64,000 nt of DNA, taken from NCBI GenBank assembly GCA_907163375.1, contig CAJQUW010007055.1, positions 211,001 to 275,000 of the forward strand, given 5' to 3'. Of this stretch, positions 5,809-64,000 are shown one piece after another. Origin of the DNA: Prostheceraeus crozeri. Taxonomy: Eukaryota > Platyhelminthes > Polycladida > Euryleptidae. The notes beneath the pieces were generated by a model. That model was not told the origin of the DNA, made no database searches, and was given only the letters and a program-made list of their open reading frames with translations. The translations under genes were made by a program, and so were the position numbers. How positions within the stretch are numbered: the stretch's first letter is position 1; each line of letters begins with the position of its first letter.

Positions 5809-7464
5809 CAGTCCGTTTCATAAAAAGTGGATCATCCCAAAATTTGACTAAATAAAACATAAGTATGATACAGAAAGCATTTTTCATGTTATTTCATGTC
5901 CCTAATATATTTAAATGTCCTTATATAATCTGATTAGCTATGATACAGTAGCGGTTCTTAAGAAGCTAATATTTTGTGGCCCTACCCTTATTGTCAATGA
6001 CATTACCAATTCGTCTAGGCATTGATTCGATGATATCGTTGATTTTTGACTGATCTAACTTTCTCCACTCTCTTTTTAACAGTGACGTAAGTTGTGATAC
6101 GCCATCTGTAGGTAGCAGTGAACGACGAACGTTACGTTTTAGAATACTCCATACATTTTCTATGGGATTCAGATCAGGAGAACGAGCTGGCCAAGATAAT
6201 GTCCTAAGCCCTAATTGAGACTTGCATAAGTTGACTCTACTACTCCTGTGACACGTAGCATTATCATCCATAAATAACCAAGTCGATGGATCACCAAGTT
6301 GATCTGTCATTTGGCCAATGTTCATTCGTAAAACATTCACATAGCGTTCAGAATTCATGGTTCCTTGCTGTATGTGAAGTTCAGAGCGGCCATTGGTCCA
6401 AATGCCAGCCCAAATCAGTAGAGTCGCACCACCTTGTGCCCGGGGACGATGTAAATGTCTCGGAATTTCCTGATCAGATTTTATCCATAATCTCAATCGA
6501 CCATCACTATCCTTCAGACGGACTGACGCCTCATCAGACCAGACAACCCGATCCCATTGATTTCGCCAGTGACAATGACTCATTGCCCATCTGAGACGTC
6601 TTTTTGTATGCTGATCTGATAATTCGATCTGAGAGGGCCTCTTACAGCTCTTGAAATTCGACTCAATAAGTCTTCTACGAATAGTGGACTTAGAAATAGA
6701 CGAGACTAGTGCAGCCATCTCAGTTAACGAGAGACTTGAATCAACTTTAACAAATCTGAAAATTAGGCGGTCTCTACGTTTGGATGTTTTGCGTGGACGG
6801 CCAGAGCCCTCTTTACGACAGAGTCGAAAATCATCATTATGCCATCGATGCACATTTGTGTAAGGGACATTTAGTCGCTTGCTTGTAGCTCGCAAAGAAA
6901 ACCCTAGTTCTAGCAAGGCTGACACTTTGCCTTTTGTGAATGCGATCTCGTTATTGTTCATTTGTGCTTTGTATTGTTTTCAACCGGTAAGAGATAGATT
7001 TCTAGCTGAAAGCAATCAGGAGTGCTGCCAACACCACCGCAACGAAGTCAGGAAGCCATGGAACATGAAGTCCAGTTAATCACATGTAGCAGTTACATTA
7101 TTGTTGATGAATAATGGTGCTATACTGGCTCTGATTGACCGATTTTCTTTATTTTTGTTTTGCTTGATAGCTTTTGGCTTGTAGAACAACATATTACATA
7201 ACAAAGGAAACAAATGTAATTTTATAAGAGTGAGGTATGATTTTGTGTAACATTGCTAAATGAAGATCAAATTATCTACTACTTTTTTATCTATAACAGG
7301 AAAACAACTCAAAATTCATGCTTGAAATTTCCAACAATGACATTAGTAAGCACAACTGACATATCTTCCAAATTTGAGAGAAATTCGTTCAAGTTTGGCG
7401 GAGTTAGACAAAGTTGAAGTTAAGGCGATGTTTAAGGGTGATCCATTTTTTTCGAAACAATCTG
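5809..7464 (-). mobile_element. Tc1-type DNA transposon, apparently complete
   Basis: The ends are imperfect terminal inverted repeats of about 30 bp, starting CAGTCCGTTTCATAAAAAG at 5809 and, on the other strand, CAGATTGTTTCGAAAAAAA at 7464. They share the CAG start, the GTTTC block and TGGATCA. A TA dinucleotide flanks both sides (5807-5808 and 7465-7466), the expected Tc1/mariner target duplication. The 1.66 kb length and single full-length transposase are normal for a Tc1-like element. It lies upstream of the first receptor exon seen here. Confidence 0.85.
5966..6961 (-). CDS. Tc1-like transposase, DD34E
   Basis: This 331-residue uninterrupted frame starts at an ATG. An N-terminal helix-turn-helix region (about residues 10-45) and a GRPRK AT-hook-like basic patch (54-58) would bind the terminal repeats. 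The catalytic core shows D143 (WSDEA), D233 (MDDNATCH) and E268 (SPDLNPIENVW). The last two are separated by 34 residues, the spacing that defines Tc1-type transposases, which cut and paste into TA sites. No stop or frameshift was found and 331-345 residues is the usual length, so the gene could still encode an active enzyme. No intron is needed. Identification is by motif, and activity is not shown by sequence alone. Confidence 0.9.
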   Translation of the reverse strand: MNNNEIAFTKGKVSALLELGFSLRATSKRLNVPYTNVHRWHNDDFRLCRKEGSGRPRKTSKRRDRLIFRFVKVDSSLSLTEMAALVSSISKSTIRRRLIESNFKSCKRPSQIELSDQHTKRRLRWAMSHCHWRNQWDRVVWSDEASVRLKDSDGRLRLWIKSDQEIPRHLHRPRAQGGATLLIWAGIWTNGRSELHIQQGTMNSERYVNVLRMNIGQMTDQLGDPSTWLFMDDNATCHRSSRVNLCKSQLGLRTLSWPARSPDLNPIENVWSILKRNVRRSLLPTDGVSQLTSLLKREWRKLDQSKINDIIESMPRRIGNVIDNKGRATKY

Positions 7465-16905: not shown

Positions 16906-16911
16906 TTTGGT
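16906..16911. repeat. Polinton target-site duplication, left copy
   Basis: TTTGGT immediately precedes the left terminal repeat and is repeated exactly at 38955-38960. Six bases is the duplication length known for Polinton/Maverick insertion by a retroviral-type integrase. Confidence 0.95.
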
Positions 16912-17745
16912 AGTAGTAAGAAAACGGCGAACTTACGACCGGCGCCCCCCCCCTCTGGAACGACAGAGGTTGTAGTCTGTCGTGGTGTGCCGGCCAGGTT
17001 GGCCCACGTTCACAAAATGTTCGCTGACTCCCCCCCCTCTGGAACGGCAGAGTGTCGTGGTGGACTTGGGCGACCGCCAGGATTTGTCTTGAGGCTATAG
17101 TGTGTGATGTTTTTCGTGCAATCTGCTGAATGTTGGGTTGTAAAATGGGTTGTTTCGAGTGGAAGGAGTGCTCGGATGTGAAAACGGAGGCCAGATTTGG
17201 ATTCAGCGTGAAATTCTGCATCTGTATGGTGAATTTGAACGCAATCGGAGAGAAAAAATTTTCGCTGACGTCCCCCCCCCTCGGGAGAGCTCGCTTCGAT
17301 TTTGGCTTCCAGTGGACGGATTTTGTCGTGCCATAGCTCGTTTGAAAGCTAAGAGTGAGACAAATTCAGTGAAACAAACGGCTTGTTCATATCTGTCTTC
17401 GTTTAGATGTGAGACGCCATTTAAGATTTTGGGACATTGGCGAAAAACGACAGAGTTAGAATTTGGGACGTTTTGGGCTGCAGCTTCAAAACGAAGCATC
17501 GGATTGGAAAACGGATTTCAGATTTGGAATCAGCGTGAAATTCTGCATCTGTATGGTGAGTTTCAAGTCAATCGGAGAGAAAAAATTTTCAACATTTTTC
17601 GAAAAAACGACAGAGTTAGAATTTGGGACTTTTTGGTCTCTAGCGCCAAAACGAACCATCGGATGGGAAAACGGAGGCCAGATTTGGATTCAGCGTGAAA
17701 TTCTGCATCTGTATGGTGAATTTGAACGCAATCGGAGAGAAAAAA
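16912..17745 (+). repeat. Polinton left terminal inverted repeat
   Basis: Matches the right end (38120-38954) in reverse complement. The outer part is nearly identical, with scattered single differences, and the match weakens over the innermost 150 bp. C-runs (CCCCCCCC near 16947, 17030 and 17272) are a striking feature. The short open frames within it, such as 16895-17221 and 17150-17698, recur symmetrically in the right repeat and are almost certainly not genes. Confidence 0.92.
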
Positions 17746-18020
17746 TTTTCGCTGACGTCCCCCCCCTCGGGAGAGCTTCCTTCGATTTTGGCTTCCAGTG
17801 GACGGATTTTGTCGTGCCATAGCTCGTTTGAAAGCTAAGAGTGAGACAAATTCAGTGAAACAAACGGCTTGTTCATATCTGTCTTCGTTTAGATGTGAGA
17901 CGCAATTTCAGATTTTGGGACATTGGCGAAAAACGACAGAGTTAGAATTTGGGACGTTTTGGGCTGTAGCTTCAAAACGAAGCATCGGATTGGAAAACGG
18001 ATTTCAGATTTGGAATCAGC
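17181..18020 (+). repeat. 487-bp tandem duplication at the inner edge of the left TIR
   Basis: The sequence beginning AAAACGGAGGCCAGATTTGG at 17181 starts again at 17668, an offset of 487 bp. The second copy runs about 353 bp and stops near 18020. The right end has no such second copy, so the left end was extended after, or independently of, the symmetric repeat. Confidence 0.85.
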
Positions 18021-18181
18021 TTGATGTTATTGTCCAATGAGGATCATCATCCAATGAGAATCAAGCATTTCTATATAAATAGCGAGCCTTCCACAGTGAG
18101 AATCATTCCATCGTTGAATCACATGAGTGACGGACGCACATTTTCTCTCTCTCTAGTTCCCTATTCTATTATCCAACTAAA
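18021..18181 (+). promoter_or_regulatory. TATA promoter and leader of the leftmost Polinton gene
   Basis: CTATATAAATAG at 18071-18082 is a strong TATA box about 100 bp before the ATG at 18182. The leader contains a pyrimidine run (TTTCTCTCTCTCTAG). The repeated CCAATGAG at 18035 and 18049 resembles a CCAAT box. Confidence 0.6.
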
Positions 18182-18956
18182 ATGGTAAGTCGCTACTTTC
18201 CTCCCTCTCCTCCCTTGAACGTAAACTTAATACAATCTTTTTCATTTTCAGGCATCTACTCCATCTGCTGCACTAGTAGGACAAAATGGCGGTCAAGCGT
18301 TACAAGGTTCGCTACGATCAGATCATCTACAACTGAGGCCAGTGGAAGAAACAACCAAGGTACATAATCCTACACCGCTACAGCGTAAATTTAAACAAGT
18401 CTTGCGTTATGACGATCATAGCGTAGTACTCCAAACGGGAATGCTCCCTTCCACGGATGTCAAGATAATGCGCAATCAGTATGGGGACTACATACTGATC
18501 CCCGTGAGTCCATACATTCGCCACCAACTTGATATTATTGAGGAGTACGTGACATTAAATATGGACATTCCTACTCCTCTTGCTCAAGAGTGGATGGCGA
18601 GAGATGACAAGGATACTCCCTATAGAAAGATTTGGGATGGTAATCAAATTTGCCTACCGGTATCACATTGGTGCACTTACTATAAGAAGGAGGGAGATCA
18701 TTCAACATCCATCACATGCGACGAGCTCGGAGAAGGTGCTTGGGATATCCTTTTCAAAGTGAATGGGCTATATTATGGTCGACACAAGGATAATAAAATA
18801 GCCTCTCTCTCCATGCATATGGAATCCATCCTATATATTCCAAAACCACCCAACGTGGATGACATAATTGATCAAATCCTTAACAGCAGTGGTACGAAGC
18901 GCAAGTCGGAGAAGAATGCTGCATCAAAACGCAAATCAAAGAAGGAGAATTACTAG
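18182..18956 (+). CDS. Polinton protein of unknown function, spliced
   Basis: The first exon is only the ATG at 18182-18184. A 67-nt intron (18185-18251, GTAAGT...TTTTCAG) follows, then one exon to the stop at 18956, giving 235 residues. Without the splice the frame opening at 18252 has no ATG for a long way, which supports the model. The N-terminus (MASTPSAAL) resembles that of the element's polymerase (MASTSSPT). The middle is globular, with many Ile, Tyr and Trp residues, and the C-terminus is a Lys/Arg/Ser tail (KRKSEKNAASKRKSKK) that looks like a nuclear localisation signal. A DNA-binding role such as single-strand binding is possible but unproven. I do not recognise the family. Confidence 0.7.
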
Positions 18957-20572: not shown

Positions 20573-20938
20573 ATGGCGAAACGTAAAATGACGAAACGTA
20601 AAAGTCAAAAGTCTTCAAAGTTTTCTTCAGCCATTCAAGCTCTCCGACGAATGAAAGCAAATCAGCGATACAATGCTATACGACATGCTAACGATAAATT
20701 CATTTGTGAAATTATTTCTCATGTGAGGAAGTTGAGGACGAAGAAATTAGCGCCAAAACAACGAAAGTTACTTAAGCGATATGCTACGAAACTGCGTTTC
20801 ATCTCCAATCCTAAAGTCACCCTTCAAAGAAAGAGCAAAACTCTAACACAAAAGGGCGGTTTCCTTTCAGCAATACTTCCAATGATAGCTCCTGCCGTGG
20901 GCAACCTATTGGGTAATATCTTTGGCTCTAAGCGTTAA
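20573..20938 (+). CDS. Basic protein with hydrophobic C-terminus, likely virion component
   Basis: 121 residues from ATG 20573. The first two thirds are extremely Lys/Arg-rich (MAKRKMTKRKSQKSSK and LRTKKLAPKQRKLLKR). The end is glycine- and alanine-rich and amphipathic (GGFLSAILPMIAPAVG, NLLGNIFG). This combination recalls small DNA-condensing or membrane-active proteins of adenovirus-like particles. It overlaps the ATPase frame by 17 bases. No family could be assigned with certainty. Confidence 0.55.
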   Translation: MAKRKMTKRKSQKSSKFSSAIQALRRMKANQRYNAIRHANDKFICEIISHVRKLRTKKLAPKQRKLLKRYATKLRFISNPKVTLQRKSKTLTQKGGFLSAILPMIAPAVGNLLGNIFGSKR

Positions 20939-21587
20939 TTATGCAAATGTTGAATCTCAAAGTAATAAAATAGATTTCAGACTTCAATGTGATAAAGTTC
21001 TGACTGTATCAGGTCCATCTCATGCAGGTAAAACTGTTTTCGCGCTGAATTTATTGGATAAAAGAAGGGAGTTGTTTAAGGAACCTATCAATCGAGTGAT
21101 TTGGTGTTATGGTATTTATCAACCGTCCCTGTTTCAGGAATTGCAAAGTTGCAACTTTATTCGACATGAAGGAATTATTCCAGTGGATAAACTTCAGTCC
21201 AATGATGTTGTTGTATTGGATGATTTATTAAAAGAAAGTAAGAATTCAAAAGATGTTACAGATATGTTCACTCGTGCAGCACATCATAAAAGGTGTTTTA
21301 TCATCTATATCACACAAAATTTGTTTCCTGATGGAAAAGAAGCTCGTACACGAAACCTGAATACGCACTATTATGCTATCTTCAAGAATCAGCGAGATAA
21401 AAGTCAATTTGAAATTTTAGCGCGACAAGTTTCACCCAGAGGATCAAAAGCCTTAATTGAAATTTTTCAAGCAGCTACTGAAAAACCATACGGTTACTTA
21501 TTCATTGACTTTACGCAAGAGTGTCCGGAAGAATTTAGATTTCGAAGTGATATTTTGAAAACTCCCATGATTATCTACAAACTATGA
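20922..21587 (+). CDS. Genome-packaging ATPase, FtsK/HerA (A32-like)
   Basis: Walker A GPSHAGKT lies at about residues 31-38 and Walker B VVVLDD at about 96-101, followed by the YITQN sensor region. This is the Polinton packaging ATPase that drives DNA into capsids. No stop or frameshift interrupts the 220 residues. The start is unresolved: the open frame runs from 20889 and contains no ATG before Walker A, so translation must begin at a non-ATG codon or the 5' part must be supplied by splicing (an acceptor-like TAGATTTCAG ends at 20980). The gene lies between the basic protein and the 21584 gene, whose ATG overlaps its stop. Confidence 0.92.
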   Translation: MALSVNYANVESQSNKIDFRLQCDKVLTVSGPSHAGKTVFALNLLDKRRELFKEPINRVIWCYGIYQPSLFQELQSCNFIRHEGIIPVDKLQSNDVVVLDDLLKESKNSKDVTDMFTRAAHHKRCFIIYITQNLFPDGKEARTRNLNTHYYAIFKNQRDKSQFEILARQVSPRGSKALIEIFQAATEKPYGYLFIDFTQECPEEFRFRSDILKTPMIIYKL

Positions 21588-22288: not shown

Positions 22289-23225
22289 GTGTTGTCACTT
22301 GCACTTGCTGCGCCAGCTCTCACAATGAAACCCCTAAGCAATGTGAACACGATCGCAAAACCGCTAAAGCCAAATGCTGCAGTTGTTGTAAATGTAGAAA
22401 GGCAAGAAAACAAAAAGATGAGAAGGAGGAAAAAGAGTCAGTCGTCATCGACTGAACGTTTGAAGTCAATCTATTATGATGTAAAACATCCAGCAGGATT
22501 TGCATCTATCAAGAAATTATCAAAAGCGAGTGGTCTTCCACAATCACAAGTGAAACGATGGTTAAAGGGTCAGGCTACCTATACACTCCACAAACAAGCG
22601 AAAAAGAAGTACCGCACCCTCCATTATATTGTTCATGACATCGATGAACAGCGGCAAGCAGATTTGTGCGATGTCGCCTCCAGTAAAAAATCGCTTGTGG
22701 CGACATTTTACTGCCAACTTGACACAAAATTGGACAAAGGTTCTACAAGATACACTCCATGCCTACAATCACTCTATCCATCGTTCTATTGGACTCAGAC
22801 CAGTAGATGTAAATGCTGACAATGTAGATAAAGTGCGCGAATCATTCCAACGTAAACGCACTCATGTGAAAAGTGATGTGAAAATTGGTGATAAAGTTCG
22901 TATCTCAAAAGTGAAAAGTGTTTTTGCCAAAGGGTACCTTCCGAATTGGACAGAGGAGGTATTTACAGTATCAAGGATTGATCAAAAAGACTCTCCGACC
23001 TCCTACAAGTTGAAAGATTACGATAATGAAGAAATTGAGGGTAGCTTTTACCGCGATGAGATTGAGGTAGTCACTGAAAGTGAAACATATTTGGTAGAGA
23101 AAATCATTCGATGTAAAAAACGGCAAGGTGAAGAATGGTGTCTTGTTAAATGGACTGGTTATCCTTCAAGTATGAACTCTTGGATGCGTCGTGCCGACAT
23201 CTTTCATCTAAGTGATCGACAGTGA
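22289..23225 (+). pseudogene. Retroviral-type integrase with DDE core deleted, chromodomain
   Basis: The N-terminal part (to about 22680) has the Polinton integrase pattern: IYYDVKHPAGFASIKKL, VKRWLKGQATYTLHKQ and QADLCDV, whose Asp is the first of the catalytic triad. Directly after it the frame changes and the sequence resumes with NRLWRHFT...LHAYNHSIHRSIGLRP, which in intact enzymes lies after the catalytic Glu. The segment carrying the second Asp and the Glu, roughly 90 codons, is missing. Downstream are an SH3-like DNA-binding region (VKIGDKVRISKV) and a chromodomain-like end (YLVEKIIRCKKR, LVKWTGYPSSMNSW). The enzyme cannot catalyse strand transfer. No ATG precedes 22325 in frame. Confidence 0.85.
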
Positions 23226-23731: not shown

Positions 23732-24997
23732 AACTTCCGGTTTTGTTTGTTTGATCAACAAGCCATACAGACAGATATTCTTAGTTCAAGTATTGTAGAT
23801 TATCATCCTCGAACAGCTGAGAATGCTGGCCCCATTGAATTTGTTATTCCTGGTGGTAGTGATGACTACATAGATTTGAGTTATGCGATGCTTGATTTGA
23901 GGTTTAGAATTCAGCAAGCAGATGGCACTGCTATTGACGATGCACATAAAGTTGGACTGAACAATTTACCATTGACTACATTACTTCGCGATGTTTCTCT
24001 AACGATTGGAGAGCAGCAGGTGGAAGGTGGTCAAAGCGATTATCCCTATAAATCATATTTCAATCATGTATCACAGTTTCATCCAGCAGCACAAAAAAGT
24101 CATATGGAAGCCATGGGATGGTACAGAGATGAAGCAGGAAAATTTGATGTTGAAACAAACAGTGGCTTTGTAAAGCGATCTGCTATGATTAAAGATAGTA
24201 GAGTATGTCAGCTATATGGTCCGCTGAATTTAGACTTCTTTAGACAGTCAAAGTTTTTACTCTGTAATACCAGCATGCGACTCAAGCTGACATTGAATAA
24301 GCCTGAAGTTGCGCTGAATGCATTTGGTAAAGTTGACAATTTTAGAATTCATGTGGAAGATATTGCACTTTACATTCGTCGAGTAGTACCGAATCCAAGT
24401 GTCATTAGAGGACATGCTGAAGGTCTTAACCGCCAAAATGCCATTTACCCCGTTCAGCATACAAAGCTTCTCACCTTTACAATTCCGAAAGATCAAAAGA
24501 GTTTCATGAAAGATGGCCTCTTTCCATCGGAAGCACCGAAGCTCCTCATGGTGGCAATGGTTGAAAATGATGCATTTAATGGTAATATAAAGAAGAATCC
24601 TTTCAATTTTAAACACAATCAGTTAAGTGAAATTGCTTTACGTGTAAATGGTGTGAGTCATCCTGGTCCACCCTAAAAACCAGATTTTGCTTCGGATCAA
24701 TTTATGCGCAGTTATGTTGATTTTATGGATGTCTTTGGCTTTTACAATACGGATGACACCAACGGACTCACTATGAAAGAGTTTAAGAGTGGATATACTA
24801 TTTATGCATTTGATTTGACTGCTGACAGCGATATTAGTGCCCCCTATCGTCAAGCGAACGTGCCTCATAATATTCGTTTGGATTTGACGTTCAAAAGAAC
24901 ACTACCTGAGACGATCAATGTATTAATTTATGCAGTCTTCGATTCAAATATTGAAATTACAAAGTATCGTGACGTGATTCTTCAGTATAATCGTTAA
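23721..24997 (+). pseudogene. Major capsid protein (double jelly-roll), broken
   Basis: The main frame (23747-24676) contains the conserved start region TDILSSSIVDYHPRT, GPIEFVIPGGSDDYIDLS, the strand RDVSLTIGEQQV and the region around YPYKSYFNH, as in Polinton major capsid proteins. Two lesions are visible. The likely start ATG at 23721 is in a different frame from the body, with the change in the T-rich stretch 23738-23752, and there is an in-frame TAA at 24674-24676. After that stop the same frame continues (KPDFASDQF, DVFGFYNTDD, LTFKRTLPETINV) to the natural stop at 24995. The product would be a single two-jelly-roll chain of about 420 residues if unbroken. The stop overlaps the protease start (TAATG). 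Confidence 0.88.
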
Positions 24998-25458
24998 TGA
25001 GTTGGTTGACTGCTGACGATATTAAGACTAAAGTGCAGCGTAATGCAGACGAAGCGACGTTGAAAGCTTTCGATAATGTCTATTCACTCGATACCTTACC
25101 ACCTGCAGTAAATCACTATCCCATCTTTATTGTGCTAAACACTCATTCGCAGAATTTAGGCGGTGAGCATTGGAAAGCGATCTTTATTGGAGAAGACCGA
25201 CGTGGTGAACTATTTGACTCTCTTGCTCAATCTCCAAATATACCAACACAACAGTGGTTGAGAAAACATACGCGTCAATATCAGCGAAATGAACGCCTAC
25301 TACAACATCCACTTTCATCAACGTGTGGTGCTTTTGTACTGTACTTCATCTTAAAACGTTTACATGTATCTCGATTTGTATCTGTTATTCAAAACTTTTC
25401 ATGTAATCCATCCTCTAATGAAAAAATGATTTGTAAGTTCTATCATGATTTGAAATAA
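24997..25458 (+). CDS. Adenain-like cysteine protease
   Basis: The 153-residue protein begins at ATG 24997, sharing a base with the capsid stop. Catalytic positions of the adenovirus protease family are readable: His58 (GEHWKA), Asp74 (ELFDS), Gln103 (LLQHP) and Cys110 (SSTCGAF). Family members mature capsid proteins inside the particle. The size is slightly shorter than adenain. No lesion was found. A poly(A) signal AATAAA overlaps the stop codon (25455-25461), and the convergent TBP-like gene ends 27 bases beyond. Confidence 0.9.
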   Translation: MSWLTADDIKTKVQRNADEATLKAFDNVYSLDTLPPAVNHYPIFIVLNTHSQNLGGEHWKAIFIGEDRRGELFDSLAQSPNIPTQQWLRKHTRQYQRNERLLQHPLSSTCGAFVLYFILKRLHVSRFVSVIQNFSCNPSSNEKMICKFYHDLK

Positions 25459-25484: not shown

Positions 25485-26030
25485 TTATTTTACAATCCGC
25501 TGGGTACGTACATACTCGATGAGATAGTCTAGGATCACATTTACTTGTACATGAGATTTTAGTCCAGTAATGATCACTTTACTATTATAAAAGATTGCCA
25601 CATGCACAGGTAACCAACAACTAATAAGAGCTGCAGGAAAAAGTTCGGGTTCATAACACAAATTGTAACTGCTGGTACGAATCTTCAAAAATGATACACT
25701 TTCACTCAATTGAGTAGAGATCACCATATTGTCCACAGTCAGATTCGACATCACACACCTCTCCCTCTTCCATATCCGACGTAGTAGTCTTTGTAGCTCT
25801 AAGCGCATTGACTGCGCCGATGAATGAGAAAGGGCGCCGAGAATCTGTACAGTCCCATTTGGGAAGAGTTGAAGATTCCGTGAATTGTTCATCTTCACCA
25901 CTAACATTTGAGGTCGGCCCGGGTAATACTTGCTGTTTGGAAGGTGTTGGTGTAATGTTGTGAGATCGATTTTGGTGTAGAGTCTGAAGCGACGGAGAAT
26001 GTTGACGATGGTGTAGCGATGGCGCTTCAT
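25485..26030 (-). CDS. TATA-binding-protein-like protein, two repeats
   Basis: 181 residues from ATG 26030, the size of a TBP core. Two imperfect repeats are visible. Repeat 1 (about 7-88) has IDLTTLHQHLPNSKYYPGRP and LQLFPNGTVQILG. Repeat 2 (about 97-175) has the hallmark CYEPELFPAALI followed by VAIFYNSKVIITGLKS. These match the saddle-forming strands of TBP, including the F/YxxGKxxxTG turn in each half. Of the four phenylalanines that kink DNA in TBP, F56, F131 and F147 appear kept, while the first is replaced near P40. The protein probably binds element promoters and recruits host polymerase II factors. A longer frame upstream to 26174 overlaps another gene and lacks TBP features, so I chose the internal ATG. 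Confidence 0.82.
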   Translation of the reverse strand: MKRHRYTIVNILRRFRLYTKIDLTTLHQHLPNSKYYPGRPQMLVVKMNNSRNLQLFPNGTVQILGALSHSSAQSMRLELQRLLRRIWKRERCVMSNLTVDNMVISTQLSESVSFLKIRTSSYNLCYEPELFPAALISCWLPVHVAIFYNSKVIITGLKSHVQVNVILDYLIEYVRTQRIVK

Positions 26031-26352
26031 GATGAAAAAATGAGTAAATTGAGCGATGTACCTTCCTTTTATACTTTTCCCAACTACCTTGATGAAATGT
26101 GAAGTTAGTATGGAGTTGGGAATGATAGAGTTGAATTCGCCGATTGTTGACGCGCAACCAGATGCGATTTCCAATACGTGAATGTCTTTTCATATAGAAG
26201 TATTTCAAATCCTTCATGATATGATGTAGAGATTGAAAATGACGATAAGATAAAGCAAACTCTCTTCTCACATTTCCAGTTGAATCTTTGAAATAGACGT
26301 TTCGATCATGATCCGTTTCAATACGTTGTAGGGAATCTAATTTCCAACTCAT
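25702..26352 (-). CDS. PC4-like protein B with Ser/acid-rich tail overlapping the TBP-like gene
   Basis: ATG 26352 opens 216 residues. Residues 1-110 align with the protein from 26731 throughout (LDSLQ.I..D...NV.FK, IM.DL.YF, I.IYHS or similar, WEKY, HRSI). The pattern of strands ending in a helix that starts L-S/T-x-x-x-F recalls the single-strand DNA-binding fold of PC4/Sub1, possibly twice per protein. The last 100 residues are low-complexity and acidic (MEEGEVCDVESD) and lie over the TBP-like frame at 25702-26030. That tail could be real overprinting or a chance opening. The fold call is tentative. Confidence 0.55.
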   Translation of the reverse strand: MSWKLDSLQRIETDHDRNVYFKDSTGNVRREFALSYRHFQSLHHIMKDLKYFYMKRHSRIGNRIWLRVNNRRIQLYHSQLHTNFTFHQGSWEKYKRKVHRSIYSFFHHEAPSLHHRQHSPSLQTLHQNRSHNITPTPSKQQVLPGPTSNVSGEDEQFTESSTLPKWDCTDSRRPFSFIGAVNALRATKTTTSDMEEGEVCDVESDCGQYGDLYSIE

Positions 26353-26374: not shown

Positions 26375-26731
26375 TTAAGATTTGCATAGTAGGGCGATGA
26401 ACTCACGACGAATAAATGTCATGATGGAGCGATGTATGTATCTTCTATACTTCTCCCAATTGTATTTGCGAAATGAGAAACAGTTTGCGGAATGAGAATG
26501 GTAGATTTGAATTTCATTTCTGTAATGTTGAAGCCAAACTTGATCACCCAAGGAGATGAATCTTAATGTTTCAAAATATTCCAAATCCCTCATGATATCA
26601 TTGAGGTTGACAAATTGTCGCCATGTTAATGTAATACCTCTTGATGTATGACCATGAGAATTTTTGAAATGTACGTTTCCATCACGATCAACTCTGATAT
26701 ATTGTAGAGAGTCCAAAATCCAAGTCTTCAT
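26375..26731 (-). CDS. PC4-like protein A
   Basis: 118 residues from ATG 26731. It is a clear paralogue of the adjacent protein B: RDGNVHFKNSHG, RGITLTWRQFVNLNDIM, then LGDQVWLQHYRNEIQIYHS and WEKYRRYIHRSI. The GITLT-x-x-QF-x-x-L stretch resembles the helix entry of PC4 (KGISL-x-x-x-QW-x-x-L). PC4 proteins bind single-stranded DNA and help polymerase II start transcription, which would suit the TBP-like neighbour. The gene ends soon after the shared domain with no tail. It is divergent from the gene at 26767, with only 35 bases between the start codons. Confidence 0.55.
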   Translation of the reverse strand: MKTWILDSLQYIRVDRDGNVHFKNSHGHTSRGITLTWRQFVNLNDIMRDLEYFETLRFISLGDQVWLQHYRNEIQIYHSHSANCFSFRKYNWEKYRRYIHRSIMTFIRREFIALLCKS

Positions 26732-26766: not shown

Positions 26767-28164
26767 ATGTCGTTTTATCATATTTTGCTTAGCAATACGG
26801 CTACAAAGAGATTTGCTAGTAATCGAGCCGCACTCTTTTCTACTCCCATTGATCATGCACAACAGCTAAATGGAAATTGGGAAGTGGGTGTCACTCAACT
26901 TGTTTATAGCAACTGTGTCTATACTTTTGATCATGAGGTGATGACTATTAATATGAGACGTACAGCTGCTTACCAATGTGAAAAGGGGTGCCGAGTATAC
27001 ATTCCACAGTGGCCAAAGAAAGATCTCTTATCATGTAAAAAGTTTATATATGATTTCTTGAATAAAGCGTGTAAACATATTGCCCAATTTACTCCGCACA
27101 ATGATGATCATAATTATGTACATCTTGTAGTTGAGAAAGATTGGATTGTTGGTTTAAGTCCAAGTTTAAGAAATGATTTAGGTTACCTCGCTAGCGCCTT
27201 AACAAGCTATGATAATTTTAACGTTAATTACCACATAAGTGGTCATAAACAGTTAATATATCGAGACGAAGCTTATTATGTAGATCTTATTCCAAAAAAT
27301 GAGAAGACGTTGGTGAAGAAGATTGTGATTAAGCCAAGAAAGACAAACATGACTCCTGAAACATTATTGAAGAAATTTAATTATCTCCTTCGAGTTGATG
27401 GTAAACAAGTGGCAACATTGACTTATATCAAATCATCTAATCATATTGCAATAATTAAATTAAATGATGATGATCTAGTATTAGTTTGTTCAAAAGATTT
27501 TCATCAGTTCTTAAGACATCGTTCTGCAGCTGTTCATGGAAAATCTGATATGCAACATTTACCATGTGAAAGGCCAAATCAATTTGATACAGAATGGGCC
27601 GTATCTTTATACAGAAAGTGTGTACAGCCTTTCGGTGGTGTCTTACATGAAACAAGAGTGTTGATGCCTCGCATTATTACTTCGGTTAAATTGGTTGTAG
27701 ATTATTTAAATGAAGTGATTAATGAGCAACATGTTTCATTTTCTGAAAAAGAAGGTGCTTTGTCTCTCACTATAAGTGGAAAAGGTATTGAACTAATTAT
27801 GGATAAAACTCTAATGGACATTTTGGGTTTTGATCAAAATATCTTTAAAAGTGGTACTGTAACCAAAGCTAGCGCAGACATGTCACTATCGCGTCGTATT
27901 AACTATTTTCAGATATATTCCAATATTGGTGAAGATGTACGTGTGGGAGATGTTGAAGCTCTATTGCTAGCAATGATACCATACCAGCCAAAAAGCTGCA
28001 GTATTTTATCTGAGCATACTTTCAAGAAAGTGCATTATACAAAGCTGAAATCAAACTACATCCCACAAATTGATACTGCCATTTATGACGATGCTGGTGC
28101 GTTGATTCCTTTTCATAAAGATGCTGTGACAAGTATCACACTCCATTTCCGAATGAAGAGTTAA
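26767..28164 (+). CDS. WEVG-type Polinton virion protein, intact
   Basis: 465 uninterrupted residues from ATG 26767. The N-terminal motif FYHILLSNTATKRFASN and NGNWEVGVTQLVYSN is the signature of a protein conserved across animal Polintons (xLxSNxSxxxFPxN, then L-x-G-x-WEVGL-x-x-I-x-Y). The C-terminus (FQIYSNIGEDVRVGDVEALLL, then YIPQIDTAIYDDAG and ITLHFR) is equally typical. The family is probably a vertex or penton-like structural protein. The exact virion role is an inference from its constant presence with capsid genes. A decayed paralogue follows directly. Confidence 0.72.
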   Translation: MSFYHILLSNTATKRFASNRAALFSTPIDHAQQLNGNWEVGVTQLVYSNCVYTFDHEVMTINMRRTAAYQCEKGCRVYIPQWPKKDLLSCKKFIYDFLNKACKHIAQFTPHNDDHNYVHLVVEKDWIVGLSPSLRNDLGYLASALTSYDNFNVNYHISGHKQLIYRDEAYYVDLIPKNEKTLVKKIVIKPRKTNMTPETLLKKFNYLLRVDGKQVATLTYIKSSNHIAIIKLNDDDLVLVCSKDFHQFLRHRSAAVHGKSDMQHLPCERPNQFDTEWAVSLYRKCVQPFGGVLHETRVLMPRIITSVKLVVDYLNEVINEQHVSFSEKEGALSLTISGKGIELIMDKTLMDILGFDQNIFKSGTVTKASADMSLSRRINYFQIYSNIGEDVRVGDVEALLLAMIPYQPKSCSILSEHTFKKVHYTKLKSNYIPQIDTAIYDDAGALIPFHKDAVTSITLHFRMKS

Positions 28165-29902: not shown

Positions 29903-32900
29903 TTATGCTAAGACGTCTCCTGAATGTGGTAGTGTGAGTTTAATTCTTTTGGGTGGTGGTATGTTTGTGTCAGGATGTCCATGTGGAAGAGATATGTTAT
30001 GTTCTAACCAGCACCTCTTATCCTCCCATGCTGAAAGCGCCCGTTTCCTAAAAGTATGCGTTTTGATCTCATGCGACTTAGATTTTAAGATTGTCATATT
30101 GACAAACGTTATATTTTTATTTCTATAGGCTTTCCTGAAATTTTTATGTTTCATGTTAGAGACCAATGATCTTGATATGCCTTTAGCACGCTTAATACTA
30201 TCGTCACAATCCTTTAATTTCATACTGTACATTTTTGGACGGAGGAGAATCATTTCATCTATTTCCTTCCCTGCTGTCTCATCCTTAAAGCAGCCAAGTT
30301 TTGTCTTATTTTTGATGGAGTAGAGTGGGTGATCAGTAGGATAATTTGATGTATCAAAATATCTTTCTAAAGATTTTCCTACTTCATTGAAATTTAAATC
30401 TTTTTGAGTGGTAATACCTAAGAAGAAACTATCTGTATCGCCACCCAACAAACGAACCTCTTTTACGAGAGGACATGGTTTTAGTATTTTATAAAAGAGT
30501 TGGTACATTTCAAGCTTAGAATAATCTAGTACAGCTTGGCCAATATAGATGGGCTTGCACAACATAACTTGAGATTTTATCATTTTAACACCTACAAGAT
30601 CCTCATCGATGATGTCTCTATCAATGAAAAGAGGTGATGAGACCAATTTCTTAAATTTTGTAACATCATTGACTAGTTTGTAGTTTACACGTTTTCTAAC
30701 ATCCTCCATCGTCTTACCAAATAGACTATTATTCTTATACTTATAAAAATCTTTTTCAAAATTATTTTGGGCTAGTGCACGTTTCTGGCTGTTGCTATCA
30801 ATATATGGTTTGAGGAAGGCTTTCTGTCTAAATTTAATAATGCGGTGAACTCTTTTTAAAATCATACCCATTTCTAAATAAAATTTTAAGATGCTAAAGT
30901 GGACTAGATAGTTTTCCTTATCATACTGGGTGAGTAAAAGTTTGCGGCAAGGCTTATAGTCGGGTTGACCGCATGATTCTAAATCTTTATGAAATTGTTT
31001 CATAAAGTTGGAAAACATATCTTTGGTCACTTCACCTGATTCGGGTGCGAGTGGAAAATCTACGGTTTTATGTTTAATATTATTTGGATAGATTAGATCT
31101 ATCTCAAAATAATATCCCCAATCACCTTCATCTGGAATTGCTAGTATGTTAGAAGGGTTGGAGAGATGCTGAATTTCACTATCATCTAACCAGCTAAACT
31201 CAGAGTGAGGGAGTGGTTTGGATAGTGAACTACCATATAAATTATTTTGGTCATAATACTTAAGATGAGTCTGATCATCGCCTACTAATTTTGATTTTAA
31301 CCTACGTGTATGTTTATTTACAAATGTGAGACCACCGCGAATTCCTCGCTCAAATAAATTATACATCTCTGGATCTTGTAAGAGATGAATGGTCTCACCA
31401 GTCATTTTAAAAGCAGACTTAAAGGACATGGCTGGCAGACTGACAAAGTGGACGGGATCTAACTTATCTTCTTCTAATGCCACTCGTCGAAACTCCTGAA
31501 ATACATCAGCCAGCAAAAATACACCTAACTTAAGGTAGGCAATCATATATTCGCCAAATGTATGGCAGTCAAATTTTATCCATGCATCTTGTGCATGATC
31601 ATAATCTTCGGTCTTACATTCTGCACCGCTCAAATCATTTTTAAATTTATCTATGGATGGAAGAGAAGTCTCGCCGAGTTTACTAATCGCATCAAAATAT
31701 GCATATGGAAAGACTCCTTTCCGTGTGATGACTTCATCGGTTAGATTTGGATATTGTTTCTTAAGATTTTGTGTTAGTGGAAGAGATTTTAGATTTTGTA
31801 CGAGAGAGGCCAGTGATGCAGTCTTAAATTGGTAGGAATCTAAAAATTTTATATCAAAATAGACCGTCTTATTTTCTTTAGTTTTATCGACAGGCACTTT
31901 TGCTGTCATGGCCATAAACTTCTCTCTCGTTTGTGCTATTACATCAAGTTTCCACTCTTTCATTTGACCTAAACCTCCTTTTATTATCATATGGCTGTCG
32001 TAGCCCTTGAAATTATGGAAAATGACGGGTAATGTACGCCGTTTCATCCTAAGTGAAAAATTGCATTTTGAACATAGTGCGTTTCTAAATTTACCAGTGA
32101 TGTGATCATGGTCGCGCACTTTCTTAATCTTATCATCATCAAATGTTTTACTACATTTGGGACAAACGTTGCAACTATCAGATTTTGCTTGATCATCTGC
32201 TGTCATATGCAATGATCTTCGATAGAGTTCACCATCATACTTTTGTTGAAATTTTACAGCCTGTTCGAGGAATTGTAGGAATTGGTAAATACAATCCTCA
32301 CCTTGCCAGACGTGCATTTTATTTTTTCTATTTTGGAAATGGTCATGCCATACTTCATAGCACGATATGGCTGCTGGCTTGTGGATGATATCATCGATAT
32401 AGCATTCGATGTCAGCATAGATGACACGAAGAGGACTTAGTTCATCGCCATTCTCTCTATATGAAAACTCCTTATCTTTGGGCATGCGCTCCATTTGTAG
32501 TTTACCTCGCTTACACCATTCGTAATGAGTTTCAAATCTATTTTTACTCCTAAAGTTGCGAATGCATCTGTCAGAGTAATAAATCTCTGATGAGGTAGAA
32601 TTTCTTAAGTGGTGGTATAAGCGAGAAATTTTGGGAATAGCGCAGTAGTGCCATTCCTCACTATCATCCTGTCTTACTAATAAAAGGTTGACAACGTGGT
32701 CATAACAACTCGAACGCGAGTTGTAGCGGACACCCTTCAATCCCTTTTCCCAAACATGGAGAACTATTTTGATGTTGTTCAATTTTTCAAATTTTTCTAT
32801 ATCTTTAATTTTCATATCTTCACTATTGCAGTCACCAAACTTTAATTCATTCTCCCACTGTTGATACTTACTCTTACGGTATCGGCTATACTGTACATCA

Positions 32901-33898
32901 TTATAGTGGAGAATGGAGAGGACGGCATACTGAAAACATTGCGATTCGCAATCTACAGAAATGACTGCTTTTTTATTTTTTAAACTTTTCGGAAGTTTAA
33001 AGGAGCCTCGTCCAGAGTAGTTCTCTAATAAAGTGATTTTAATCATGGCGGTCTCAATACCATCGAAAACGAGACCACTATCACGCTCGTTAAATTTATC
33101 TATATTTAATTTTAACCCTTGGATATGAAAATTTATCCAAGACTCACAGTCTACAACTTCGGTTGCAGGAGAGGAGGGTATGTGAAACTCCAACCTCTCT
33201 ACTATTTGACCAGTATGGTGGTCGATTTTTACATATTTTATTTTGAGATAGATGAGCGCCTTCATTCTAAAATTGACTAAATTGTTGAAGAGCGCACCAA
33301 TCAAAGATGAATTTTGATGAAACCATTCTTCAAAGTCAGTAATGGTTTCTGAGGACTCCATCTGGTAGTTCCTCACTAAATTATTTATCGACACTTCAGA
33401 AAGTCGGATAGAGGAGGTGCTGTTAGTATAACTATCGTCACTGTGTGTATGTCGAAGTCTATGTGAAGATAGTTCAAAATGTGACTCAAAGGACTGAATG
33501 CATAAATCGCAAGAAAAGGAGACATCGTTAACAGAATCATCCCCACCTTCAGAGATTGATGCTGACTTAGGTCTACAAACACCTCGCTTAATGTGTCGGA
33601 TGAGATCACGCTTCCTCGTTAAGATGTGCCCACAGTCAGCACATTCCCGATCGTTGCATTCCCGCGACAATGTTGACATGGACTCGCTCGAGATGGGACT
33701 GGTATCACCTGAAAGAGAAATCATTCTATCATCTCCGTTCAAGTCTCAGTGTATTGTTACAACCTACCTTGACTCAACAACTCTAAACTTTCCTCGAGAA
33801 GGGAGGGCGTTGGTGATGAAGTTGATGCCTGAAATTGAGGAAGATGCTATTAGCCACACGTTTGAGGGAGATGAGTGAAGAAATTTTCAACTTACCAT
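29903..33898 (-). CDS. PolB: Protein-primed DNA polymerase B, three exons
   Basis: Main exon 33708-29903, with two short 5' exons inferred: ATG alone (33898-33896), a 67-nt intron (33895-33829), an exon of 61 nt (33828-33768) and a 59-nt intron (33767-33709). All junctions are GT-AG with good pyrimidine tracts and the frame is kept, giving 1289 residues. The N-terminal part has two C2H2 zinc fingers (CADCGHIL..H, CDLCIQSF..H). Exonuclease motif I is YADIEC (near 32410). An endonuclease-VII-like CPKC/RDHDHITG block is at about 32040-32170. Motif A is DQNNLYG (31231-31258), motif B NSLFGKTM (about 30710-30738) and motif C GDTDS (30430-30441). No stop or frameshift was seen. It copies the element from a protein primer. 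Confidence 0.93.
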
Positions 33899-35793: not shown

Positions 35794-35835
35794 CGTGACT
35801 TGAAATTGAATGAGAAGCGCTGCAATCTTCTGGCT

Positions 35836-35844
35836 TATATAAGG
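35836..35844 (-). promoter_or_regulatory. TATA box of the small acidic gene
   Basis: TTATATAAG on minus, 43 bases upstream of ATG 35793. The position would put the transcription start about 15 bases before the start codon. Confidence 0.5.
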
Positions 35845-37325: not shown

Positions 37326-37382
37326 TTTGTAACTTATGTATCTGTAAAGGAAGGATGAAATAGAATTACTAACAGAAGACAT

Positions 37383-38119
37383 TGGCAGTCATTTTTATAA
37401 TCATACAGCTAAATTGTGAGAATGGTGGAAAGTGTCGAACCTTTGAATCCGTTACAGGCATTACTCAGAGGGGATCTTATCCCAACTCCAAGGCCTCGGC
37501 CCACAAATCCAACCTCCCGCGGACAGAGCGTGCGTCATATCACTGTGTTGGTATCCGGACCTCGATTTTGACATGAAAATCAGTGGATTATTTACAAAGG
37601 TTGCAAATTCCAAGCCGAAGCTCGCCTCCCACAACTTTATAAATGTCTTAGTTGAATTCAGCAGGGTCGAAAACCCCAGAAAACCTCCAAAACTAGTGAA
37701 TTTAAATTTTTCAATTTTTTAGCACTACTTATGAAATTTTATAAGTAGTCTATCACTTAGGACAGGTCAATAGCGACTGAACCTTTTTTGAATCAAGTCA
37801 AACGGACTTGTAGAAGCAAAGTTACAAGCCTTTAAAGTTTTGGAGTCTTTTATGGCCTGGAGACGAAGGCCATCTCCTGGCTAACCTCTAAGTCTGACGC
37901 CTTAGCTGATATCAGCAATGAAATTTTCTAAGTCGGTTTCTAACAGAAACTCGGGATTTGGAATGTCCGAAGCTATCATCGGAGCTCAGAGAGACTACTT
38001 ACCGTTGACAATCTCTCGTCTGAATGACAAGTCTCTGTCGGTTCCCAGCTTATATAGTGTGTGGCGATCAGCTGATGAGTAATACCCATCATCCAAACAC
38101 TAAAAACCCGTCTATCTCC
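37383..38119. other. Right inner non-coding region of the Polinton
   Basis: No supported gene. Short openings on both strands lack motifs. It leads into the right terminal repeat. Confidence 0.45.
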
Positions 38120-38954
38120 GGTTCTAGTGCTCCGATTGAGCTGGAAATACACCATTTCCATGTAGAATTTGACGCTGAATCCGAATCTGGCCTCCGTTTT
38201 CCCATCCGATGCTTCGTTTTGGCTCTACAGCAGGTAGCCATCGCAAAAATTCTAACTCGTTTTTTCGAAAAATGTTGAAAATTTTTCTCTCCGATTGACT
38301 TGAAACTCACCATACAGATGCAGAATTTCACGCTGATTCCAAATCTGAAATCCGTTTTCCAATCCGATGCTTCGTTTTGAAGCTACAGCCCAAAACGTCC
38401 CAAATTCTAACTCTGTCGTTTTTCGCCAATGTCCCAAAATCTTAAATGGCGTCTCACATCTAAACGGAGACAGATATGAACAAGCCGTTTGTTTCACTGA
38501 ATTTGTCGTACTCTTAGCTTTCAAACGAGCTATGGCACGACAAAATCCGTCCACTGGAAGCCAAAATCGAAGCGAGCTCTCCCGAGGGGGGGGGACGTCA
38601 GCGAAAATTTTTTCTCTCCGATTGCGTTCAAATTCACCATACAGATGCAGAATTTCACGCTGAATCCAAATCTGGCCTCCGTTTTCACATCCGAGCACTC
38701 CTTCCACTCGAAACAACCCATTTTACAACCCAACATTCAGCAGATTGCACGAAAAACATCACACACTATAGCCTCAAGACAAATCCTGGCGGTCGCCCAA
38801 GTCCACCACGACACTCTGCCGTTCCAGAGGGGGGGGAGTCAGCGAACATTTTGTGAACGTGGGCCAACCTGGCCGGCACACCACGACAGACTACAACCTC
38901 TGTCGTTCCAGAGGGGGGGCGCGCCGGTCGTAAGTTCGCCGTTTTCTTTCTACT
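38120..38954 (-). repeat. Polinton right terminal inverted repeat
   Basis: Reverse complement of 16912-17745. It ends ...GAAAGAAAACGG and CTACT at 38954. The innermost 150 bp is more diverged than the rest. Confidence 0.92.
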
Positions 38955-38960
38955 TTTGGT
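38955..38960. repeat. Polinton target-site duplication, right copy
   Basis: TTTGGT, identical to 16906-16911. Confidence 0.95.
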
Positions 38961-42161: not shown

Positions 42162-43226
42162 TTATAAATACGAATGACCACTCGTCAGCTCCTGTCTGCG
42201 ATTAATGCAAGGTTGATGAATGCTAATAAGCTTAGCTTCAGCAATACGGGTAGAAACTGGATCATTAAGACATTGCATAATAATGATGTCAAAATCATCA
42301 ATAGTTAAAATCGACCAATAATGGTCTTTCTTCGCATGTTCTGAGAGGGCACTCTTGCTGTCCTGATTATGCAAACTACGTTTGTGTTCCGAATATCTTG
42401 CACTTAAAGTGCGATTCGTAGAGTCAATGTAGTTTTTGCCGCAATGTTTGCAAATGAACTTATATACAACATATTTTAAGTTACAAATGTTAGGTTTGCC
42501 AATTATACCACAGAGATTACAATTACAGTTGTGTAAATTATTGCGATAGTTGAAGCATGAGCTAATTTGTCTGCCAGGTTTACTGACAAGATTAATAGGC
42601 AAATCATATTTATCGGCTAATCTGTTTAGTTTACGATTGGTACTATCGTTAATGTAATCCAATTTCAAATTGACACTATTTTTATTCTTATTTTTGTTGC
42701 CTATTTTCGTAGTATTATCACTACTGGTATGCTTCGACTAACTTTGATTGAAGCCATTCCTCCTCAATCTTTTAGTCATTTTATTTTTATTCTTACGTAC
42801 TGACTCATGCGTAGAACAACGCTTTTCAACATACGTGTAACTATTTTTAATAAAATTGGTCTTCACATGTGAGGGGACCCAACTATCATAGTGAAGGGTA
42901 TTACCAGAATGGCAGCCTTTTCTATATAATTCATACTTTATCTGGTTATTGGCTATGCTGATGCTGATATCCAAAAAATTAAGAACGTTGTTCATAGGTA
43001 CGTCTATGGAAAATTTTATATTTGCTGATACCGAATTGAAAATGTCGAGGATACTATTCAAAATGCTAGGTTCATTTGGGAATGGTCCCATAATAATGTC
43101 GTCTATATACCTCTTATATATTGTATATTGTGGCTAGAGCTTAATTTATTCAACGCCATGTTTTCAATGTGATTCATATAAATAATGGCAAAGGCTGGAG
43201 CATAGTGAGAACCCATAGGGCAGCCT
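42162..43226 (-). pseudogene. Penelope-like RT/GIY-YIG protein, minus copy
   Basis: The C-terminal half of the reverse transcriptase (the QGCPMGSHYAPAFA box at about 43200-43235, then the thumb, 43091-42738) and the GIY-YIG endonuclease (42668-42162, with CNLKYVVYKFICKHCGKNYIDST and ARYSEHKRSLH) are both readable. Frame breaks occur near the YIDD box and at a stop near 42738. The GIY-YIG tyrosine-isoleucine pair is present but glycine is replaced by aspartate. The 5' part of the element is missing. Confidence 0.82.
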
Positions 43227-43257: not shown

Positions 43258-44614
43258 GTCCCAAAAGTCATTAGTAACATAAAAAGCACTGACGACCTCA
43301 TCGAGTATCTGAGAAACATTTCGTTACCTAGAAAAAACAGCCTAACATTCATTTCCTTAGATGGGAAAAATTTATATACTAGTATACCTCTTCTCCATGG
43401 TATCGAAACCGTCATAAAATTTGTTAAAGAACACGAAAACACTTTCGATAGTTGCGGGTTCTCACATAGTGAAATTGAGAAATTTTTAAAATTTATAACA
43501 TTCAACAACGATGTATATTACAATAATAAAGCGTCTCTCCAAATTCAAGGCTGCCCTATGGGTTCTCACTATGCTCCAGCCTTTGCCATTATTTATATGA
43601 ATCACATTGAAAACATGGCGTTGAATAAATTAAGCTCTAGCCACAATATACAATATATATGAGAGGTATATAGACGACATTATTATGGGACCATTCCCAA
43701 ATGAACCTAGCATTTTGAATAGTATCCTCGACATTTTCAATTCGGTATCAGCAAATATAAAATTTTCCATAGACGTACCTATGAACAACGTTCTTAATTT
43801 TTTGGATATCAGCATCAGCATAGCCAATAACCAGATAAAGTATGAATTATATAGAAAAGGCTGCCATTCTGGTAATACCCTTCACTATGATAGTTGGGTC
43901 CCCTCACATGTGAAGACCAATTTTATTAAAAATAGTTACACGTATGTTGAAAAGCGTTGTTCTACGCATGAGTCAGTACGTAAGAATAAAAATAAAATGA
44001 CTAAAAGATTGAGGAGGAATGGCTTCAATCAAAGTTAGTCGAAGCATACCAGTAGTGATAATACTACGAAAATAGGCAACAAAAATAAGAATAAAAATAG
44101 TGTCAATTTGAAATTGGATTACATTAACGATAGTACCAATCGTAAACTAAACAGATTAGCCGATAAATATGATTTGCCTATTAATCTTGTCAGTAAACCT
44201 GGCAGACAAATTAGCTCATGCTTCAACTATCGCAATAATTTACACAACTGTAATTGTAATCTCTGTGGTATAATTGGCAAACCTAACATTTGTAACTTAA
44301 AATATGTTGTATATAAGTTCATTTGCAAACATTGCGGCAAAAACTACATTGACTCTACGAATCGCACTTTAAGTGCAAGATATTCGGAACACAAACGTAG
44401 TTTGCATAATCAGGACAGCAAGAGTGCCCTCTCAGAACATGCGAAGAAAGACCATTATTGGTCGATTTTAACTATTGATGATTTTGACATCATTATTATG
44501 CAATGTCTTAATGATCCAGTTTCTACCCGTATTGCTGAAGCTAAGCTTATTAGCATTCATCAACCTTGCATTAATCGCAGACAGGAGCTGACGAGTGGTC
44601 ATTCGTATTTATAA
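43258..44614 (+). pseudogene. Penelope-like RT/GIY-YIG protein, plus copy
   Basis: Reads from about 43290 through motif A (SLDGKNLYTSIP), QGCPMGSHYAPAFAIIYM at 43547-43600 and the catalytic YIDDI at 43669-43684, then thumb (43685-44038) and endonuclease (44108-44614). There is a frame change just before YIDDI (the GAGAGG stretch at 43660) and a stop at 44036. The Val expected after the first catalytic Asp is Gly. The endonuclease part is identical to the minus copy. The N-terminal region is absent, so this is a 5'-truncated dead copy. Confidence 0.85.
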
Positions 44615-63466: not shown

Positions 63467-64000
63467 TCAGGATTTGTTTGGTCTCTGAAACGGATCCTGG
63501 GTAGATCTGTCAGAAAACTGGGAACCGGTGCGGGATAAGGCATCAGCCCAAATGTTGTCTTTTCCCTTTATATGACAGACAATGAGGTTAAACTCCTGAA
63601 GAGCTAAACACCAAGCGAGTAGTCTACGATTCTTGAACCTCATTTTGTTGAGAAAAATCAACGGATCATGATCTGTGTGAACTTTTACTGAACCCACTGA
63701 AGAGGCAATATAAATCTCAAAATGTTTAACTGCACTGAGTAAGGCGAAGGCCTCTTTCTCTATTGTAGAGTAATTCTTTTGGTGCTTATTTAACTTTTGC
63801 GAGAAATATGCAACTGGAAATCTTTCACCTTAAATATTCTGTGTCAACACTGCACCTATGCCTACGTCGCTCGCGTCAGTTATGAGTTCGAATGGTTTGT
63901 TCCAGTCTGGAGCATTTAGAATCGGTGTATCACACATCATAGTTTTTAATGACTCGAATGCTTTCTGACAAGGAGTAGTCCAAATAAACTTTGAGTTCTT
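63467..64000 (-). pseudogene. Ty3/gypsy RNase H, 3' part of pol
   Basis: The reading frame enters at the window edge with the end of reverse transcriptase (CQKAFESLK, DTPILNAPDW) and continues with RNase H: FELITDASDVGIGAVLTQ, YSTIEKEAFALLSAVKHF, VHTDHDPLIFL and ADALSR. An in-frame TAA at 63830-63832 interrupts it. The frame ends 23 residues after ADALSR, only about 108 bases before the LTR, so no integrase follows. Either integrase precedes reverse transcriptase, as in Gmr1-type elements, or it was lost. Confidence 0.85.

Follow-up and report, generated by a model that had tools for sequence, protein, structure and literature searches.

A TATA-binding protein gene within a Polinton of the flatworm Prostheceraeus crozeri

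A Polinton in the genome of the polyclad flatworm Prostheceraeus crozeri carries a gene for a TATA-binding protein (TBP). The window, a stretch of 64,000 nucleotides of contig CAJQUW010007055.1, includes this element at 16912-38954, and the TBP gene lies inside it at 25485-26030 on the minus strand, as an ATG-to-stop frame of 181 amino acids. Transcription in eukaryotes and archaea depends on TBP. That the frame encodes a TBP is virtually certain, and a role of the protein in transcription is probable.

Fold and family of the element TBP

The initial annotation had read this frame as a TBP core with both repeats, and the motifs it quoted (CYEPELFPA, NGTVQILG and NSKVIITG) are all present. The identification holds by profile and by structure. 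The protein scores 72.6 bits against the Pfam TBP family (PF00352, cut-off 22.9) over two stretches, and its predicted model is a two-lobe α/β saddle, the lobes comprising residues ~6-87 and ~97-176. A phmmer search of the PDB with the 181-residue protein matched 35 distinct sequences (best E-value 2.3e-11), which are TBP, TFIID or TBP fusions by name. The sole exception, 4wzs_D, was deposited as 'ECU04_1440 protein' and is nearly identical in the alignment to the TBP chains 3eik and 3oc3. Chance resemblance is ruled out by the Pfam profile, the PDB matches and the predicted saddle. The element TBP is 19-26% identical to cellular TBPs whose structures are known.

A search of the protein database at E≤0.01 gave 61 relatives, each of which carries PF00352 and is 34-81% identical to the element TBP. 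The better argument that this TBP is functional is its frame, which is intact across relatives down to 34% identity. A tree with host TBP, TRF and viral TBPs had been envisaged in the initial annotation. The tree obtained sets the window TBP and 57 relatives (four short ones were left out) against five cellular TBPs only, and in it the 58 family rows all lie to the same side of a branch whose SH-aLRT is 100.

The enclosing Polinton

The element spans 22,043 bp and has AGTAG termini. Its terminal inverted repeats (TIRs), at 16912-17606 on the plus strand and 38260-38954 on the minus strand, have arms of 695 nt that are 98% complementary, and a perfect 6-bp duplication, TTTGGT, flanks them at 16906-16911 and 38955-38960; a 6-bp target-site duplication is the rule for Polinton/Maverick elements. 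Direct repeats with units of 148 and 266 nt are seen within the terminal repeats, at 16912-18076 and 38120-38694, some in inverted copies at the opposite end.

The minus strand encodes a family B DNA polymerase (PolB; 29903-33724, 1273 residues) with an endonuclease VII-type domain. It has 1538 relatives, and most of the 120 listed carry PF02945 and some PF03175; from the family match, PolB is likely to be of the protein-primed type. On the plus strand, sub-threshold Pfam matches point to a cysteine protease of Ulp1/adenain type (24997-25458), an A32-like packaging ATPase frame (20889-21584) and an adenovirus pX-like core protein (20573-20938). The TIRs, the target duplication, PolB and the weak protease, ATPase and pX matches together agree with the earlier assignment of the element to the Polintons. 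A candidate major capsid protein frame (23732-24676, plus strand), recognized by eye and ended by an in-frame stop, has no match in Pfam or the PDB. An integrase/chromodomain remnant occupies two frames at 22325-23225 on the plus strand, the chromodomain by Pfam and the integrase by eye, and all four fetched copies that align on both sides carry 256-311 extra bases at ~22681/22682. Because of the capsid-frame stop and the integrase remnant, the window copy is regarded as a partly decayed Polinton. Pfam gave no match to TFIIB or RNA polymerase in 22 element ORFs, a search that a diverged or spliced TFIIB could escape.

Two ORFs stand in tandem upstream of the TBP gene on the same strand. ORF b (25702-26352, 216 residues) overlaps the TBP gene by 329 nt in another frame, and its N-terminal part is paralogous to ORF a (26375-26731, 118 residues). 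The predicted model of ORF a contains two β4-α units and is tentatively assigned to a PUR/Whirly/PC4-like nucleic-acid-binding fold, possibly shared by ORF b.

Copies in the same genome and linkage elsewhere

The assembly that contains the window (2.05 Gb, 14,165 contigs) gave 11,863 first-look TBP candidates. The best 150 of these, the window copy included, were scored, and all are stop-free, full length and 98-100% identical. The Polinton family is thus heavily amplified, with at least 150 stop-free TBP copies, and the idea of a single broken TBP copy is ruled out for these best matches. Twenty copies from the best-150 list were fetched as 6,001-base stretches. Every one keeps Polinton DNA beside the TBP gene, and in 19 of them it reaches over 1 kb in either direction; in copy L024 Polinton DNA extends for only ~0.3 kb on one side, and copy L025 is rearranged. 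By tblastn, TBP is intact in all 20, the protease in 15, ORF a in 14, ORF b in 12 and the ORF at 26767 in four; no copy has an intact pVI-like ORF. ORFs truncated where a stretch ends are included under 'not intact'. The eight copies whose ORF b is broken or partial all have an intact TBP, a contrast that is biased because the copies were picked for TBP similarity. Against the 20 copies, the window TBP has a dN/dS ratio of 0.24 (0.31 when the overlap is excluded), and ORF b has 0.15; by distinct variants the ratios are 0.14 and 0.47, respectively. These figures do not single out TBP as more constrained than ORF b. Intactness and dN/dS both lean towards conservation, since the 150 and the 20 copies are the best matches to the window TBP.

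The partial decay of the window element would be in keeping with a TBP that is a decaying passenger or a recent capture of the host's own gene. This is extremely unlikely given the 19-26% identity to cellular TBPs, the signature shared with 61 relatives and the intact gene in 150 of 150 scored best matches and 20 of 20 fetched copies. Recent host capture in particular is rejected on the low identity and the broad family: the TBP gene belongs to the Polinton and was not copied recently from the host.

Linkage of TBP to Polinton genes in other genomes rests on one shared figure: TBP relative P0002 and ORF a relative P0064 both have a longest contig of 1771 bases and probably occur together. Among the 120 PolB relatives listed, of 1538, none matches by eye the longest contig size of a TBP relative, and no TBP relative was found on a contig of 21,290 bases whose PolB is 76% identical. 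The window TBP is itself missing from the listed protein-database relatives, whereas the window ORF a is present in the list for ORF a; a gene caller averse to overlaps may explain why no contig shared by PolB and TBP was seen. TBP could serve as a Polinton marker gene, one that such gene callers may miss. Among the PolB relatives, P0082, 60% identical to the element polymerase, bears the name of a protein from a Pseudomonadota metagenome bin; this suggests mis-binning of Polinton contigs as bacterial.

Residues predicted to face DNA and transcription factors

Residues were counted over 62 sequences with the numbering of the 339-residue human TBP; the DNA-facing roles of V169, L212, V220, T222, L303, V311 and the other groove positions are those we take from TBP-DNA structures. 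Three of the four DNA-kinking phenylalanines had appeared to be kept, and this is borne out across the family (F214 62/62, F288 61/62, F305 62/62). The F197 position holds proline in 58 of 59 sequences, the window protein among them, and phenylalanine in none, so that the family lacks the four-phenylalanine set of canonical eukaryotic TBP. In the C-lobe, the minor-groove positions N257 (62/62), V259 (62/62) and T313 (61/62) are kept, L303 is replaced by A, T or S in 62/62 and V311 mostly by I or M. Judged from these positions, the C-lobe is near-conventional, yet not fully canonical. The N-lobe keeps N167 (50/50), but V169 in only 1/55 (mostly M or H), and has L212 changed to Q in 58/62, V220 to Q in 62/62 and T222 to L in 56/62. 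With an N-lobe so changed, plain TATA binding should not be assumed.

The available text of PMC7221094 describes two C-lobe glutamates of TBP that contact TFIIB/TFB, and an N-lobe basic cluster that meets TFIIA, TAF1, Brf1/2 and Mot1; matching these residues to E284/E286 and to N-lobe positions was done in this analysis, and the 14 basic positions are our choice. The stirrup glutamates are conserved (E284 61/62, E286 62/62). Among the basic positions, R196 is as in human in 59/59, R203 in 24/62 and K218 in 22/62; the others are so in few or none (R186 2/58, R188 4/58, K195 0/59, R205 2/62, R208 0/62, K225 0/62, R231 0/62, R235 8/62, K236 6/62, R239 6/62, K243 9/56), and the basic regulatory patch of canonical eukaryotic TBP is not found. 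Charge is partly kept by exchange of R and K (R in 24 and K in 17 of 62 at 203, K in 16/62 at 208, K in 22/62 at 218, R in 18 and K in 9 of 56 at 243), and the window protein has R at 239 and 243. Loss of contact with TFIIA and Mot1 is therefore not certain. The pattern may represent a natural separation of two TBP jobs, with TFIIB recruitment kept and regulator contacts largely changed.

The same residues bear on two other readings of the protein. It might act mainly as a decoy whose stirrup sequesters TFIIB, or which occupies host TATA boxes, and so lowers host transcription or silencing instead of driving the genes of the element. Such a role would suit a protein that keeps the TFIIB glutamates while losing basic residues and one wedge, and whose target motif was not found in the element; it is nevertheless unlikely, as the DNA-facing residues are conserved in the family, including the N-lobe glutamines (58/62 and 62/62). 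Since similarity of fold alone does not fix function, the saddle might otherwise bend terminal or internal element DNA in replication or packaging, next to ORFs a and b, which may, tentatively, be single-strand nucleic-acid binders. We consider this improbable; it gives no reason for the kept TFIIB-contact glutamates (61/62 and 62/62).

Promoter-like sites and candidate introns

A candidate core promoter precedes the TBP gene at 26038-26073 on the minus strand. It consists of a TATA box, TATAAAAGG (26073-26065), 43 nt before the ATG at 26030, and an initiator, TCATTT (26043-26038), whose first base lies 30 nt beyond that of the TATA box. In arthropods the initiator consensus is TCAKTY. Of the 20 fetched copies, 16 have an exact TATAAAAGG and all have TCATTY. 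In 14 relatives the called ORF extends far enough upstream for comparison; nine have I-K at 13-14 and H followed by F, S or L at 3-4 residues before the Met, and five do not. This in-frame pattern is what TATAAA and TCATTY at matching places would give when translated in that frame, and coding constraint on ORF b may add to it.

The TATA box that had been noted near 18071 is confirmed at the left end, at 18072/18074 on the plus strand, with an initiator 29-31 nt downstream (18103) and a candidate 67-nt intron at 18185-18251 (18072-18260 overall). The intron would follow the ATG directly and join it in frame to the frame at 18252. The other box noted earlier, at 35836 on the plus strand, has no initiator within 20-45 nt on that strand, but the minus strand holds a TATA at 35841 with an initiator at an offset of 28 (35808-35841), a leftward pair internal to the element. 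At the right end (38002-38056, minus strand), a TATA at 38056 is followed 29 nt on by an initiator and by a donor-like GTAAGT at 38002. This donor-like site lies ~23 nt past the predicted start, and an acceptor-like site, CTTCCTTTACAG, ends near 37342 (37340-38060, minus strand); a short spliced leader is possible there.

The element thus holds four TATA-initiator pairs at a spacing of 26-33, namely at the TBP gene, at both ends and at 35841 on the minus strand; the starts predicted from them are 26041 (TBP gene), 18105 (left end), 38025 (right end) and 35811. With this spacing window, which was set after a first look at the pairs, simulations gave a mean of 0.19 pairs and none of 400 reached four; the 42 kb of flank hold one pair, and other spacings give 0-2 in the element. 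PolB is preceded by a fifth pair, at 34032, with a short spacing of 24. Apart from the left-end pair, no TATA/initiator pair was found upstream of the capsid-side genes. A comparison of the regions preceding 12 rightward ORFs gave no common motif, and hence no target site was identified.

The pairs, the candidate intron and the donor-like site point to host RNA polymerase II (Pol II) and the spliceosome. Their resemblance to Pol II genes weighs against recruitment of a TFIIB paralogue such as Brf1, and with it of RNA polymerase III. In the text consulted of PMC7221094, high conservation of the arginine that contacts C.L3.2 extends to Brf1 and Brf2, which would allow such recruitment, but Brf1/2 also use the N-lobe cluster, mostly changed here, and we regard this as very unlikely.

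Proposed mechanism

From the fold, the family, the residue pattern, the element context and the promoter-like motifs described above, we infer the binding and expression steps of a possible mechanism. Host TBP would produce the element TBP early, from the TATA/initiator promoter of its own gene, with other early promoters. The saddle would then bind minor-groove DNA at element promoters and bend it with three wedges, not four: the C-lobe, which has two phenylalanine wedges, would read a half site close to the conventional one, and the N-lobe, which has one, an altered half site. Conservation of the two N-lobe glutamines is what reading of a specific site would lead one to expect. Through its two glutamates, the conserved C-terminal stirrup would recruit host TFIIB, hence host Pol II. 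Because the N-lobe is without most of the human-type basic residues, the element TBP may work largely outside TFIIA, TAF1/TFIID, NC2 and Mot1, and it would be expected to depend less on TFIIA and to be less subject to TAF1 inhibition and to removal by Mot1/NC2. Element genes, perhaps as a late class, would thereby be expressed when host TBP is limiting or regulated.

The earlier suggestion that a private TBP captures host Pol II factors would fit the kept TFIIB-contacting glutamates, the TATA/initiator pairs and the candidate intron. We lean slightly towards a functional element-specific TBP that works by this full mechanism. A division of labour between the lobes, in which a host-compatible C-lobe docks TFIIB and the N-lobe has acquired a new half-site specificity together with immunity to TFIIA, NC2 and Mot1, is suggested by the proline in place of the N-lobe wedge and by the two glutamines that are nearly invariant on the DNA face. 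It is put forward as a doubtful but possible extension. If true, a single protein would allow a 22-kb transposon to operate its own class of promoters on host Pol II, much like the late-gene switch of herpesviruses in minimal form. The element TBP may also offer a handle on the timing of Polinton gene expression.

Comparison with known systems

The element TBP shares its fold with eukaryotic and archaeal TBPs (PF00352; human 1cdw, M. jannaschii 2z8u) at the low identity given above; it differs from cellular TBP in the proline wedge, in the N-lobe DNA face and basic residues, and at L303 and V311. With Polinton/Maverick elements and adintoviruses, the element has in common the TIRs, the 6-bp duplication, PolB, the weak protease and ATPase matches and the chromodomain remnant. 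A parallel in mode of action would be the late TATT-binding vTBP of beta- and gammaherpesviruses (UL87/BcRF1/ORF24, with U58 as a homologue), a virus TBP analogue that acts at a modified box with host Pol II, as proposed for the element. The match of U58 to the element TBP is weak (E 2.1e-3, rank 43 in BFVD), and vTBP is much longer (1005 residues in the U58 model against 181). It also belongs to a six-member viral set, according to the available part of PMC7162547, and no such partners were seen in the element.

TBP-like proteins had been said to occur in large DNA viruses, as is indeed the case: 35 BFVD matches at E≤1e-3 (8-20% identity to the element TBP) include several named TBP or TFIID, the remainder being unnamed or uncharacterized. 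Nucleocytoviricota, including the B263R type, and mirusviruses encode a TBP fold like that of the element and are far larger; for a mirusvirus, TBP is reported in the portion consulted of PMC10132985. In the accessible text of PMC7221094, viral TBPs keep the first TFIIB glutamate (C.L3.2) in only ~40%, nearly all viruses with TBP also have a TFIIB-like protein, and most viral TBPs are held there to work with viral TFIIB and not with the host's. A TFIIB gene is thus mostly carried by TBP-bearing large viruses, and Pfam detected none in the element. Going by its residues, the present family differs from other viral TBPs in the part that would contact TFIIB and resembles them on the regulatory side. 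The virus TBPs reported in the literature searched belong to large viruses, which carry many components of a transcription apparatus. A 22-kb Polinton with TBP alone, where no polymerase or TFIIB was detected, would be an unusually small system of this type.

TBP is absent from the conserved Polinton set named in the part of PMC4028283 available. The words TATA and TBP do not occur in the accessible text of PMC11071308, PMC11071296, PMC10328495 and PMC8363768. The literature search, in sources seen in part and outside Starrett et al. 2021 and the 2006 Polinton papers, returned no TBP of a Polinton, Maverick or adintovirus. So far as this literature goes, TBP in a Polinton is new, while the giant virus and mirusvirus TBPs and the old fold were already known.

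Other features of the window

Outside the element, the frames at 42165-42737 (minus strand) and 44039-44611 (plus strand) are identical in their first 40 residues, and each has beside it a frame that contains YIDD (42741-43133 and 43634-44035). Together they form an inverted pair of retroelement-like sequence; three of these four frames were scanned with Pfam and had no match at E≤0.1. The flanks further contain an ORF for a Tc1/mariner-type transposase of 331 residues (5966-6961, minus strand) and a retroelement RNase H fragment (63470-63829, minus strand).
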